The translations under genes were made by a program, and so were the position numbers. The notes beneath the pieces were generated by a model that ran no database searches, had not been told where the DNA came from, and saw nothing but the letters and a program-made list of their open reading frames with translations. DNA of 64,000 nucleotides from Neomicrococcus aestuarii (GTDB lineage Bacteria > Actinomycetota > Actinomycetes > Actinomycetales > Micrococcaceae): NCBI RefSeq assembly GCF_014201135.1, contig NZ_JACHDR010000001.1, forward strand, positions 2,728,001 through 2,792,000. The letters run 5' to 3'. Shown here one piece after another: positions 46,848-50,411 of the stretch. Each line of letters begins with the position of its first letter. Position 1 is the stretch's first letter.

Positions 46848-48191
46848 GTGGAATGGCTTTATCTCTTCCTAGGATTTCTCCTAGTTCTGGGTACCGGCTT
46901 CTTCGTTGCGGTGGAATTTTCACTCCTCGCCGTGGACCAGGCTCAGGTACAGCGTTCTATAGACAATAAAGAGCGCGGCGCTGAGGCACTCATGAAGTGT
47001 CTGAAATCACTGTCGACTCAGCTCTCGTCTTGCCAGCTGGGCATCACCTTGACCACGCTGTTGACCGGTTACGTCATGGAACCTAGCGTCGGTCGCCTGC
47101 TGACGCCACTTCTGGAGGGCTGGGGCGTAGGTCCCGCGTCAGCTGCCATCTCCCTGACCATCTCTATGGTCTTGGCGACGTTGTTCTCGATGGTTCTTGG
47201 CGAACTCATTCCTAAGAACCTTGCGATCGCTGCCGGACTGCCGCTGGGCCGCATGCTGGCCCGCCCTCAGCTGATCTTCACGGCCGTGTTCCGCCCCTTC
47301 ATCTTTGTGTTGAACGGATTCTCTAACAGCGTCCTGAACCTTTTTGGCATGGAAGCGAAGGAAGAGATCTCCGGCGCACGTACTCCGGAAGAGCTGAACT
47401 CTTTGCTCCGCCGCTCGGCCGAGCTGGGAACGCTGGACCGAGACACCGCTCGATTCCTCTCTCGCACGTTGGTCTTTTCTGACCGCACCGCTGCCGATGT
47501 CATGACCCCGCGAATCCGCATGGAAACCGTGCATCAAGACGCTCCGCTGGACGAAGTGATCGAGCTGTCCCGTCGCACCGGCTACTCGCGCTTTCCCGTG
47601 ATCGGTGATTCGCCGGATGACATTCTGGGCGTGTGCCACGTCAAAAAAGCTGTGGCAGTTCCGCGCAAGAAGCGCGATGGACTGGTTGCCGGCACTATCA
47701 AGAGCGATGTCATCTCCGTGCCGGAAACCGTGCACTTGGATGATCTGATTACCGAACTTCGCGAAGCAAACCTTCAGATGGCTGTCGTGCTGGACGAATA
47801 CGGTGGCACCGCCGGCGTGGTAACGCTCGAGGATCTTGTCGAAGAAATTGTGGGCGAAGTGACGGACGAGCATGACCCGGTCAAACCCGGCGTCCTGCAG
47901 TCCGCCTCCGGCCAGTGGTATTTCCCGGCGATCATGCGCCCTGATGAAGTCAACGAGCAAGTGCCAGGCCTCAAAATTCCTGAGGACGGTTCCTATGAAA
48001 CCGTGGGCGGCTTCGTGATGGCGGAGCTGGGCCGGATTCCTGCCGAAGGTGACCAAGTCACGTTCGAAGGCGGCGGCCTGACGGTGGTCCGGATGGACGG
48101 GCGCCGCGTTGATCGCGTGCGCTTCGTTCCCGAATTTGAGGACGACGACGCTGCACCTGCGGAAGCGCTGAGCGAGGGGAGTACCCGATGA
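46848..48191 (+). CDS. CNNM/CBS-domain transporter-associated membrane protein (HlyC/CorC type), first
   Basis: A 447-residue protein of the CNNM (DUF21) family linked to magnesium or sodium-coupled divalent-cation efflux. Domains: DUF21 with four hydrophobic segments (about residues 2-170; LGTGFFVAVEFSLLAVDQAQVQ and LGELIPKNLAI), two CBS motifs (about 205-330; FSDRTAADVMTPR, FPVIGDSPDDILGV, VVLDEYGGTAGVVTLEDLVEEIVGE) and a C-terminal CorC_HlyC domain (GYETVGGF-like SYETVGGFVMAELG). The acidic tail EFEDDDAAPAEAL contains a weaker relative of the dispersed DNA word. GTG start with GAAGGTGG about ten bases upstream. It overlaps the next gene by four bases (ATGA). Confidence 0.9.
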   Translation: MEWLYLFLGFLLVLGTGFFVAVEFSLLAVDQAQVQRSIDNKERGAEALMKCLKSLSTQLSSCQLGITLTTLLTGYVMEPSVGRLLTPLLEGWGVGPASAAISLTISMVLATLFSMVLGELIPKNLAIAAGLPLGRMLARPQLIFTAVFRPFIFVLNGFSNSVLNLFGMEAKEEISGARTPEELNSLLRRSAELGTLDRDTARFLSRTLVFSDRTAADVMTPRIRMETVHQDAPLDEVIELSRRTGYSRFPVIGDSPDDILGVCHVKKAVAVPRKKRDGLVAGTIKSDVISVPETVHLDDLITELREANLQMAVVLDEYGGTAGVVTLEDLVEEIVGEVTDEHDPVKPGVLQSASGQWYFPAIMRPDEVNEQVPGLKIPEDGSYETVGGFVMAELGRIPAEGDQVTFEGGGLTVVRMDGRRVDRVRFVPEFEDDDAAPAEALSEGSTR

Positions 48192-49282
48192 GCGACTGGA
48201 TGGGTATTGCCTGGCTTGTAGTCCTGTTGATGGCCAACGCGTTCTTCGTGGCCGGCGAGTTTGCCGTCATGTCAGCACGCCGCAGTCAGATTGAACCGCT
48301 CGCGGAGACCGGTAACAAGCGCGCGCTCAACGCGCTCAAGGCCATGGAGAACGTCTCCATCATGCTGGCCATTTGCCAGTTGGGCATCACGGTCTGTTCG
48401 TTGTTGATCTTGAACGTTGCCGAACCGGCGATTCACCACTTGTTCGCGGTCCCTCTTGAGGCGCTCGGCATACCCGAGCCGATCTCAGACACTGTGGCGT
48501 TCTTGCTCGCGCTCTTGATCGTGACCTTCTTGCACGTGACCTTTGGCGAAATGGTTCCTAAGAACATGGCGGTGTCCGTTGCGGACAAGGCCGTTCTGCT
48601 CTTGGCGACGCCGCTGCTGTGGCTTTCTAAGATCACCAAGCCAATCGTCTTCTCGCTGAACTGGATCGCTAACCATGCTTTGCGCCTGATGGGTGTGGAG
48701 CCCAAGGACGAGGTCACCTCGAGTTACACGATCGAAGAAGTGCAATCAATCGTGGAGGAATCCACGAAGCACGGCACGCTGGATGATGATGCGGGAATTC
48801 TTTCGAGCGCACTGGAGTTCTCTGACTACACGGTGGAGAACATCATGGTGAAGCTCGAAGAATTGGTGACCCTACCGGCTGACACCACACCTAAGAGCTT
48901 CGAAAAGGCCGTGGGACGTACCGGCTTCTCGCGCTTCGTCATGTTGGATGAGGACGAGGCTTACGCGGGTTACCTGCACCTTAAGGATGTCTTGGCTATT
49001 CCTGATTCGCTCTATGGCGAACCGATCTCCGTGACGCGCTTGCGATCCATGGCGAACCTCAAGGCCACGGCGGAAATTGAGGATGCGCTTGCTGTCATGC
49101 AGCGCACGGGCTCGCACGTGGCTCGCGTGTTGGATGAGGGTAACTCGACCATCGGCATTCTCTTCTTTGAAGATGTTCTGGAGCAGTTGGTGGGTGAGAT
49201 TCACGATGCCACCCAGCAACAGGGCTATCGTCGTCGTAATCTCCTGGATGAAGAGGACAGCGAAAGCCGCGCCTCCCGCTAA
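48188..49282 (+). CDS. CNNM/CBS-domain transporter-associated membrane protein, second
   Basis: A 364-residue partner of the preceding protein, with DUF21 (ANAFFVAGEFAVMSARRSQIEPLAE, VTFGEMVPKNMAVSVADKA) and a CBS pair (FSDYTVENIMVK, ARVLDEGNSTIGILFFEDVLEQLVGEI) but no C-terminal CorC domain. Two adjacent, overlapping CNNM genes of different length are common in actinomycetes and suggest a heteromeric complex. The protein ends in a charged tail YRRRNLLDEEDSESRASR. The stop is followed within three bases by a candidate metal-regulator operator. Confidence 0.9.
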   Translation: MSDWMGIAWLVVLLMANAFFVAGEFAVMSARRSQIEPLAETGNKRALNALKAMENVSIMLAICQLGITVCSLLILNVAEPAIHHLFAVPLEALGIPEPISDTVAFLLALLIVTFLHVTFGEMVPKNMAVSVADKAVLLLATPLLWLSKITKPIVFSLNWIANHALRLMGVEPKDEVTSSYTIEEVQSIVEESTKHGTLDDDAGILSSALEFSDYTVENIMVKLEELVTLPADTTPKSFEKAVGRTGFSRFVMLDEDEAYAGYLHLKDVLAIPDSLYGEPISVTRLRSMANLKATAEIEDALAVMQRTGSHVARVLDEGNSTIGILFFEDVLEQLVGEIHDATQQQGYRRRNLLDEEDSESRASR

Positions 49283-49284
49283 AT

Positions 49285-49303
49285 GCAAATCGTTCGCATT
49301 TGC
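49285..49303 (+). promoter_or_regulatory. candidate Zur/Fur-type operator upstream of znuACB
   Basis: GCAAAT-CGTTCGC-ATTTGC, a 19-bp inverted repeat 107 bases before the znuA start. Size and AT-rich arms resemble Fur-family boxes, and a zur-type gene lies at the end of the operon. It does not match the best-known actinobacterial Zur consensus closely. Confidence 0.4.
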
Positions 49304-49312
49304 GATACGCTA

Positions 49313-49350
49313 GAGAGTACGACGACGCAACCATGCGGCGTCGTACTCTC
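49313..49350 (+). terminator. strong hairpin between CNNM and znuA genes, built from inverted copies of the dispersed word
   Basis: GAGAGTACGACG (49313-49324) pairs with CGTCGTACTCTC (49339-49350), 12 bp, extended by CGCA/TGCG around loop ACCA. The left arm holds a 12/14 copy of the dispersed word (49319-49332). No T run follows; it may terminate the CNNM operon or lie in the znuA leader. Confidence 0.7.
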
Positions 49351-49409
49351 TGTTTAGCAGTATTCTCAACTTTTATGTCCGCGGCCCTGCCGCTTAGAAA
49401 GGTCCCTTC

Positions 49410-50411
49410 GTGATCTTCCAACCCTCCACCCCGCTCAAGCGCCGTGCCCTCATGGCTCTGGCCCTTCCCGCCGCCATGATGTTGGCAGCGTGTGGTGAGA
49501 GCAGCACCGCCACCTCCAGCGCGGGTGCTGCTGACGCCGGGATCTTCGTGGTGGCCTCCACCAATGTGTACGGAAACATCGCCGAGCAAATCGGCGGCGA
49601 GCACGTGAGTGTGGACTCCATCATCAATCGCGAGACCCAGGATCCTCACTCGTATGAGGCCACCGCTCAAGATCGGTTGACCGTCTCTAAAGCCAGCTTG
49701 GTGATCGCCAACGGTGGCGGGTATGACGATTATCTGGATCAGCTCGTGGCGAGCGATTCAACCCCGGTACTGCACGCCGTGGACTTCGCCGATTCGCCCG
49801 CGGAGACTGACGTCGCTGAGAGCTCCGCATCAGCAACCACAGAGCTTGCCAGCGAAGATGCGCACGACGGTCACGATCACTCGGGTAGCGGTAACGAGCA
49901 TGTCTGGTATGACCTGCACACCATGGAAGCGCTCGCAGAAGGCATCAAGGATCAGCTTGTCACAGCGGATCCTGACAATGCGGACAGCTACGAGGCCAAC
50001 ACCAAGACGTTCGTGGCGTCCCTCGAAGCACTCACCGAACGCACCCACGCGCTCGCAGAAAAGAACGCCGGTAAGAAGTTCGCCATGACGGAGCCAGTTC
50101 CGTATTACTTGCTTGCGGAGACGGGCTTCGCAGACGCTACGCCAGAGGGCTTCACTTCCGCCATCGAAGCGGGAAATGACGTCCCAGCGCTCGTAGCCCT
50201 GGAGATGGAAGACGCGCTCAAGGCAAAGACCTTCGCGTTCCTCGCGTTCAATCCGCAAACCTCCACGCCGCAAACCGATTCCATTCGCGGGACCGCCGAA
50301 GATAACGGCATACCAGTGCTAGATTTTCTGGAGCTCTTGCCAGAAGGCAAGAACTTCCAGGAATGGATGAGCGAGAACATTTCTAGCATCGAGGGCGTCA
50401 GTGCCAAGTAG
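49410..50411 (+). CDS. znuA: zinc ABC transporter substrate-binding lipoprotein
   Basis: A 333-residue cluster A-I binding protein. Lipoprotein signal with basic LKRRALMALALPAAMMLAAC (lipobox Cys28), first lobe with DPHSYE (His80), a histidine-rich mobile loop EDAHDGHDHSGSGNEH (His152, 155, 157) leading to NEHVWYDL (His164), and the second lobe. The His-rich loop marks zinc-type proteins. The equivalent of the third ligand region reads TEPVPYYLLAETGF. GTG 49410 is preceded by GAAAGG. znuC overlaps by 11 bases. Confidence 0.92.
   Translation: MIFQPSTPLKRRALMALALPAAMMLAACGESSTATSSAGAADAGIFVVASTNVYGNIAEQIGGEHVSVDSIINRETQDPHSYEATAQDRLTVSKASLVIANGGGYDDYLDQLVASDSTPVLHAVDFADSPAETDVAESSASATTELASEDAHDGHDHSGSGNEHVWYDLHTMEALAEGIKDQLVTADPDNADSYEANTKTFVASLEALTERTHALAEKNAGKKFAMTEPVPYYLLAETGFADATPEGFTSAIEAGNDVPALVALEMEDALKAKTFAFLAFNPQTSTPQTDSIRGTAEDNGIPVLDFLELLPEGKNFQEWMSENISSIEGVSAK

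Follow-up and report, generated by a model that had tools for sequence, protein, structure and literature searches.

Facing copies of a dispersed word in a predicted hairpin between CNNM and znuA genes of a Micrococcaceae genome

Uptake words, and inverted pairs of such words, are known in the Neisseriaceae and Pasteurellaceae according to the available parts of two papers (PMC1852404, PMC3630211). In these parts, uptake sequences are given as occurring in at least about 1,000 copies per genome (PMC1852404), and the 10-mer uptake word of Neisseria in about 1900 (PMC3630211). The word that builds the hairpin described here is similar to the neisserial DUS and its dialects, as portrayed in the accessible part of PMC3630211: it is short and dispersed within and between genes, related species favour a different letter at one position, and facing pairs are tied to gene ends. 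It is unlike the neisserial DUS in its actinobacterial host, its other sequence and the rarity of U-tracts. With the USS and USS terminators of the Pasteurellaceae (PMC1852404, accessible part) it has in common a core with a weaker, A-rich 3' flank and word-pair hairpins at gene ends, whereas the core is a different one and few pairs carry T-tails.

The hairpin at 49312-49351 is read as one member of a genus-specific class of hairpins, formed by two facing copies of a dispersed word that is approximately AGCTGCG[T/G]CGTCGTACT. Its surroundings in the window, the whole analysed stretch of 64,000 nucleotides, are listed below.

48188..49282, + strand: upstream gene, CNNM and CBS transmembrane protein (Pfam)
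49283..49309, no strand: operator-like palindrome ATGCAAATCGTTCGCATTTGCGATACG, found by eye and identical in the sister species (G027)
49306..49311, + strand: predicted -10 element TACGCT of the znuA promoter, found by eye; TACGAT in the sister species
49312..49351, no strand: whole hairpin from folding, 17 pairs with one A.G mismatch, loop ACCA at 49330-49333
49313..49329, - strand: left arm, dispersed word, read on the - strand as TGCGTCGTCGTACTCTC
49334..49350, + strand: right arm, G-variant of the word, TGCGGCGTCGTACTCTC
49410..50411, + strand: downstream gene, ZnuA-type zinc-binding protein (Pfam)

The hairpin and the probable znuA leader

The initial annotation claimed a 12-bp stem, and both of its halves are exactly present, GAGAGTACGACG at 49313-49324 and CGTCGTACTCTC at 49339-49350. 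The stem is longer than was given there, with arms at 49312-49329 and 49334-49351 and a loop of 4 nt. Its outer part consists of 13 pairs (49312-49324 with 49339-49351), of which A49312-T49351 is the outermost; past the A.G mismatch (49325/49338), 4 pairs, CGCA/TGCG, close the loop ACCA. The predicted fold of the 63-nt region has an energy of -33.8 kcal/mol, whereas shuffles average -14.93 (sd 2.88), corresponding to a z of -6.55, and none of 200 shuffles was as good. A search of 49100-49600 against Rfam gave nothing at E up to 1. The left arm is the dispersed word TTGCGTCGTCGTACTC, as had been proposed; the right arm is its G-variant TGCGGCGTCGTACTC rather than merely the shortened copy described earlier. 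The 12-mer of the stem shows scarcely any enrichment in the window (11 copies against 5.5 expected with 2 mismatches allowed; 4 of 100 shuffles reach 11), and window and genome counts indicate that the enrichment resides in the core GCTGCGTCGTCGT, not in the full 12-mer.

The palindrome ATGCAAATCGTTCGCATTTGCGATACG stands directly after the CNNM stop codon, and the hairpin starts about 30 nt after that stop. The palindrome is presumably a Zur box, being of the Zur/Fur type by position and resemblance. When 17 relatives were inspected by eye, several had Fur/Zur-like palindromes ahead of the following gene, and L012, L014, L015 and L020 a similarly spaced TANNNT -10. Some of the 17, e.g. L005-L009, have no such palindrome or -10 by eye, and in L006, L007 and L009 an ABC ATPase gene comes next. 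A scripted pattern search of the relatives found one ATTTGC in L030 and two 7-mers resembling the word, and did not find any znuA operators. The predicted znuA start would lie near 49317-49320, within the left arm. Since the hairpin follows directly after the predicted znuA promoter, it is probably part of the znuA leader as well as lying behind the CNNM gene. At 46848-49282 two CNNM-type genes stand in tandem, as they also do in the sister species, with a CorC_HlyC match in the first only.

Distribution of the word in the genome and the family

As many as 240 copies of GCTGCGTCGTCG (129 and 111 by strand) occur in the source genome, G000, which has 2.89 Mb in two contigs; the reversed control occurs 2 times. 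In the sister species, the only other genus member compared, 119 copies were counted against 1 for the reversed control. None of the remaining 393 genomes of the family (395 in all) has more than 18 copies (rows read by eye), the maximum of 18 being that of G043. The word is therefore strongly over-represented and lineage-specific in the manner of DUS/USS, as no family genome of the 395 stands out apart from those of the two genus members. Similarly, the 15-mer GCTGCGTCGTCGTAC is found in 80 copies here and in at most 2 in any of 395 other genomes of the order, a draw outside which the sister species falls. In the window, CTGCGTCGTCGT and its shifted forms are the most over-represented 12-mers. 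Within the set of genomes compared, the word is a dispersed element specific to the genus.

In a sample of 464 kb of the source genome, made up of 20 stretches and the window, the 10-mer GCGTCGTCGT occurs in 92 copies, i.e. 0.198 per kb, a density far lower than that of the Neisseria DUS. Extrapolation from this sample leads to about 570 copies of the 10-mer per genome, which is below the high copy number of DUS/USS. In the same sample, the flanks of the word are weaker than the core and A-rich on the 3' side. The density in the sister species is 0.16 per kb, from 64 flank-complete copies in 400 kb (65 in the count of frames and locations). Among the matches listed, word copies look denser at about 1.0-1.75 Mb of contig C1 of the source genome, on both strands.

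Genes were called with a home-made caller, with a codon-usage score replacing a GC-position score; both under-call, with about 80% genic and about 20% of the sample intergenic, and the results are inconsistent in places, as the orthologs L164 and L166 were called inside a gene and intergenic, respectively. By these calls, 63 of the 92 sampled copies lie in genes and 29 are intergenic, and the genic copies occupy all six frame/strand classes, 28 of the 63 being in one antisense frame. The sample from the sister species has 65 copies, 49 of them in genes, where they occupy five of the six classes, and 16 between genes. The concentration in one antisense frame is what would be expected if the word were a product of chance or of codon usage, with GTC/CGT/GAC-rich codons yielding it. 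This explanation is hardly credible, as the reversed control has 2 copies against 240, the rest of the family displays no such excess, 29 of 92 copies are intergenic, and all six frames are used in the source genome. The most-used antisense frame (28 of 63 genic 10-mers) reads as xDDA-type peptides.

Assignment of polarity by GC skew divides the sampled copies into 43 and 49, a rough division since the skew is weak here. Judged from this sample and this rough assignment, the word resembles DUS/USS in occupying both strands and several reading frames with no replication polarity. The second contig contains no copies of the 10-mer or 12-mer in 60 kb of its 60.9 kb, where about 12 10-mers would be expected at chromosomal density; when its first 20 kb were compared with plasmids, all matches were partial, and most were to records of the Arthrobacter group. 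A dispersed, chromosomal word that is absent from these 60 kb might also be a signal for recombination or chromosome segregation, either Chi-like or FtsK-orienting, with its facing pairs being incidental. Such a signal is very improbable in view of the missing strand polarity (43 against 49 by the weak skew, 129 against 111 genome-wide) and of the 11 facing pairs against 0 same-direction pairs in the source genome described below. Polarity of the Chi/KOPS kind was rejected as a candidate, with none seen in the sample (43 against 49).

Of 16 word copies in the window, 15 align to the sister species. Their core identity of 9.13/10 is above that of all 10-mers (7.90, P 2e-4) and also above that of CpG-rich 10-mers (7.91, P 1.5e-4; n=15 window copies). 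Eight of the 15 aligned words differ in the core, all by substitution and without a core gap, and small gaps are present only in some flanks. The most variable core position is the T/G site. For AGCTGCGKCGTCGTACT, the ratio T:G is 46:18 in the source genome and 17:26 in the sister species, as counted by eye, so that the two related species differ in dialect as carriers of DUS/USS do.

Facing pairs of the word and gene ends

The initial annotation proposed searching the genome for further close inverted pairs downstream of genes, and the absence of any was one half of its refuting condition. Such pairs recur, mostly at gene ends: the word followed by its reverse, with 4-34 nt between the 8-mers, is found at 11 sites in the source genome and 5 in the sister species, and backward controls gave 0. 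These counts are lower bounds, as the search took short loops only. Same-direction pairs at the same spacing number 0 in the source genome and 2 in the sister species (backward control 1 in the latter), and the difference of 11 facing against 0 same-direction pairs in the source genome has a binomial p of 5e-4. The opposite facing order, which is that of the 49312-49351 hairpin, occurs at 5 sites in the source genome with 7-mer arms (control 0); under a looser pattern it gives 14 strand hits in the source genome (control 0) and 7 in the sister species (control 2).

A total of 33 distinct pair sites were examined, 21 in the source genome and 12 in the sister species, of which 21 are intergenic, 3 lie over a gene end and 9 lie inside genes. 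The 24 of 33 that are intergenic or over a gene end compare with 29 of 92 sampled source-genome words that are intergenic (Fisher p 7e-5), a comparison set that includes words forming pairs within the sample; the source genome alone has 15 of 21 such pair sites (p 0.001). The excess of close inverted pairs near gene ends is a further likeness to DUS/USS. For the most part the facing pairs lie in intergenic stretches at the 3' ends of genes; among the 24 sites, L113 lies between divergent genes and L110 is without a called left neighbour. Stems of at least 12 pairs are present in 23 of the 24 sites, but also in 5 of the 9 inside genes, as determined by a crude stem walker that assigned 4 pairs to L166 though the fold comparison shows a longer stem.

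Nine pair sites of the source genome were compared with the orthologous stretch of the sister species, and 8 show a hairpin there by predicted fold judged by eye, a biased figure because L098, L104, L094, L165 and L166 were taken as already known pairs of the sister species; 12 pair sites of the source genome lie outside this comparison. Four sites were reached without selecting for pairs, and three of them keep the hairpin: L001/L145, L158/L144 and L116/L086, the last being the znuA site itself in the source genome and the sister species. At that site the hairpin of the sister species is weaker (-17.7 kcal/mol on a stem of 9 pairs, compared with -30.7 in the source genome), with the full word in the right arm and a partial word in the left. 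The hairpin of L097, inside a gene, is not kept in the sister species, and in the source genome, too, its two arms fail to fold together locally. At L158/L144, a T-A to G-C change affects both arms, beside an A-T to G-T change. In this facing pair (L158 1501-1538 and its L144 ortholog), the change on both arms matches the variant preferred in the other species.

The recurrence of similar-sized hairpins with variable AT-rich loops could also be explained if they were remnants of a small mobile palindromic element of the REP/MITE kind, whose solo ends would be the single words. It is improbable, however, since loops and flanks are unlike between sites, 8 of 15 aligned window words differ in the core by substitution in every case, and most sampled words lie inside genes. 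Insertion of a mobile element was rejected, as no empty orthologous site was found among the 9 compared.

The hairpins resemble intrinsic (Rho-independent) terminators in being stable stems at gene ends, a few of them with T-runs, and the znuA-site hairpin is itself a stable GC-rich stem after a stop codon. They differ from such terminators in that 21 of the 24 intergenic or gene-end pairs, the znuA site included, have no U-tract; the remaining 3 (L002, L105, L098) have at least 5 T in the 8 nt after the stem. L002 (1490-1550) contains what looks like a complete intrinsic terminator between convergent genes, with a word-pair stem followed by TTTTTTT, and at L105 a stem and T-run between convergent genes are similar to an ordinary intrinsic terminator. 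At the znuA site, the best 8 nt after the stem hold 3 T on the + strand and 2 T on the - strand, a count that rises to 4 by eye when the outermost A-T pair is assigned to the tail, and a terminator scan gave no match at the 49312-49351 hairpin. Therefore, the suggestion of the initial annotation that the element can form terminators stands for the class, through L002 and L105, but is unsupported by the sequence at 49350. Word pairs can serve as terminators, and most of them are not of the U-tract kind.

A plain word-pair terminator of CNNM transcription, like those of Neisseria and Haemophilus, has to be considered for the znuA site. The start of the hairpin about 30 nt after the CNNM stop, the position of the class at gene ends and the T-runs of L002 and L105 all speak for it, as does the ortholog in the sister species, where the shorter stem is followed by TACTTTCT with 5 T in 8 by eye and where a weak terminator is possible. 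Nevertheless, this explanation is unlikely: neither strand has a U-tract at the znuA site and the scan finds none, only 3 of the 24 pairs reach 5 T in 8, and the hairpin is preceded by the predicted znuA promoter. In particular, a strong terminator at 49312-49351 is unlikely because it would block znuA from a position directly downstream of the predicted -10. The best explanation as a whole, whose chance of being right is put just short of even, is a genus-specific hairpin class derived from an uptake-like word, with a stem in the znuA leader at this site and not a U-tract terminator. The likeliest role of the hairpin would be that of a stable stem opening the znuA leader and of a 3' barrier for CNNM transcripts.

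Competence genes and a possible role in DNA uptake

The word is likened to an uptake sequence because it occurs on both strands and in all frames, has species variants and inverted pairs, is missing from the 60 kb of the second contig that were searched, and is accompanied by competence genes. An uptake role is a well-motivated hypothesis. The words may accumulate for a reason acting on DNA, most likely self-recognition in uptake by a Tad pilus, ComEA and ComEC, and where two words face each other, the RNA hairpin might be kept as it marks or protects transcript boundaries. A wider proposal is that an actinobacterial genus independently evolved a DNA uptake sequence system, with a species-tuned word, a Tad-pilus/ComEA receptor, and facing pairs co-opted as RNA hairpins where transcripts begin or end, one of them in a zinc-regulated leader. 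It is tentative, and somewhat likelier to be wrong than right.

A literature search of open-licence papers yielded, among the matches listed, no uptake word for Actinobacteria; the uptake words found were those of the Neisseriaceae and Pasteurellaceae. If the proposal is true, such words would have arisen independently in an actinobacterium that carries Tad-type pilus genes, which would show that DNA uptake guided by words can evolve more than once, as can the reuse of their pairs as hairpins.

According to the available part of PMC6370729, competence in Micrococcus luteus uses Flp/Tad pili, ComEA and ComEC. As in organisms with DUS/USS, competence machinery is present in both genomes examined here. 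ComEC (PF03772) was found in both, and also in 10 of 14 control genomes; that competence genes are so widespread counts against the uptake reading. Beside ComEC, the source genome encodes a ComEA-like SLBB+HHH protein (Pfam), and a similar ComEA-like ORF stands beside ComEC in the sister species, as judged by ORF reading only. Each of the two genomes has two T2SSE ATPases over the cut-off, and in the source genome a T2SSF-like gene stands next to each T2SSE gene; one of these neighbours exceeds the Pfam cut-off and the other falls just short of it.
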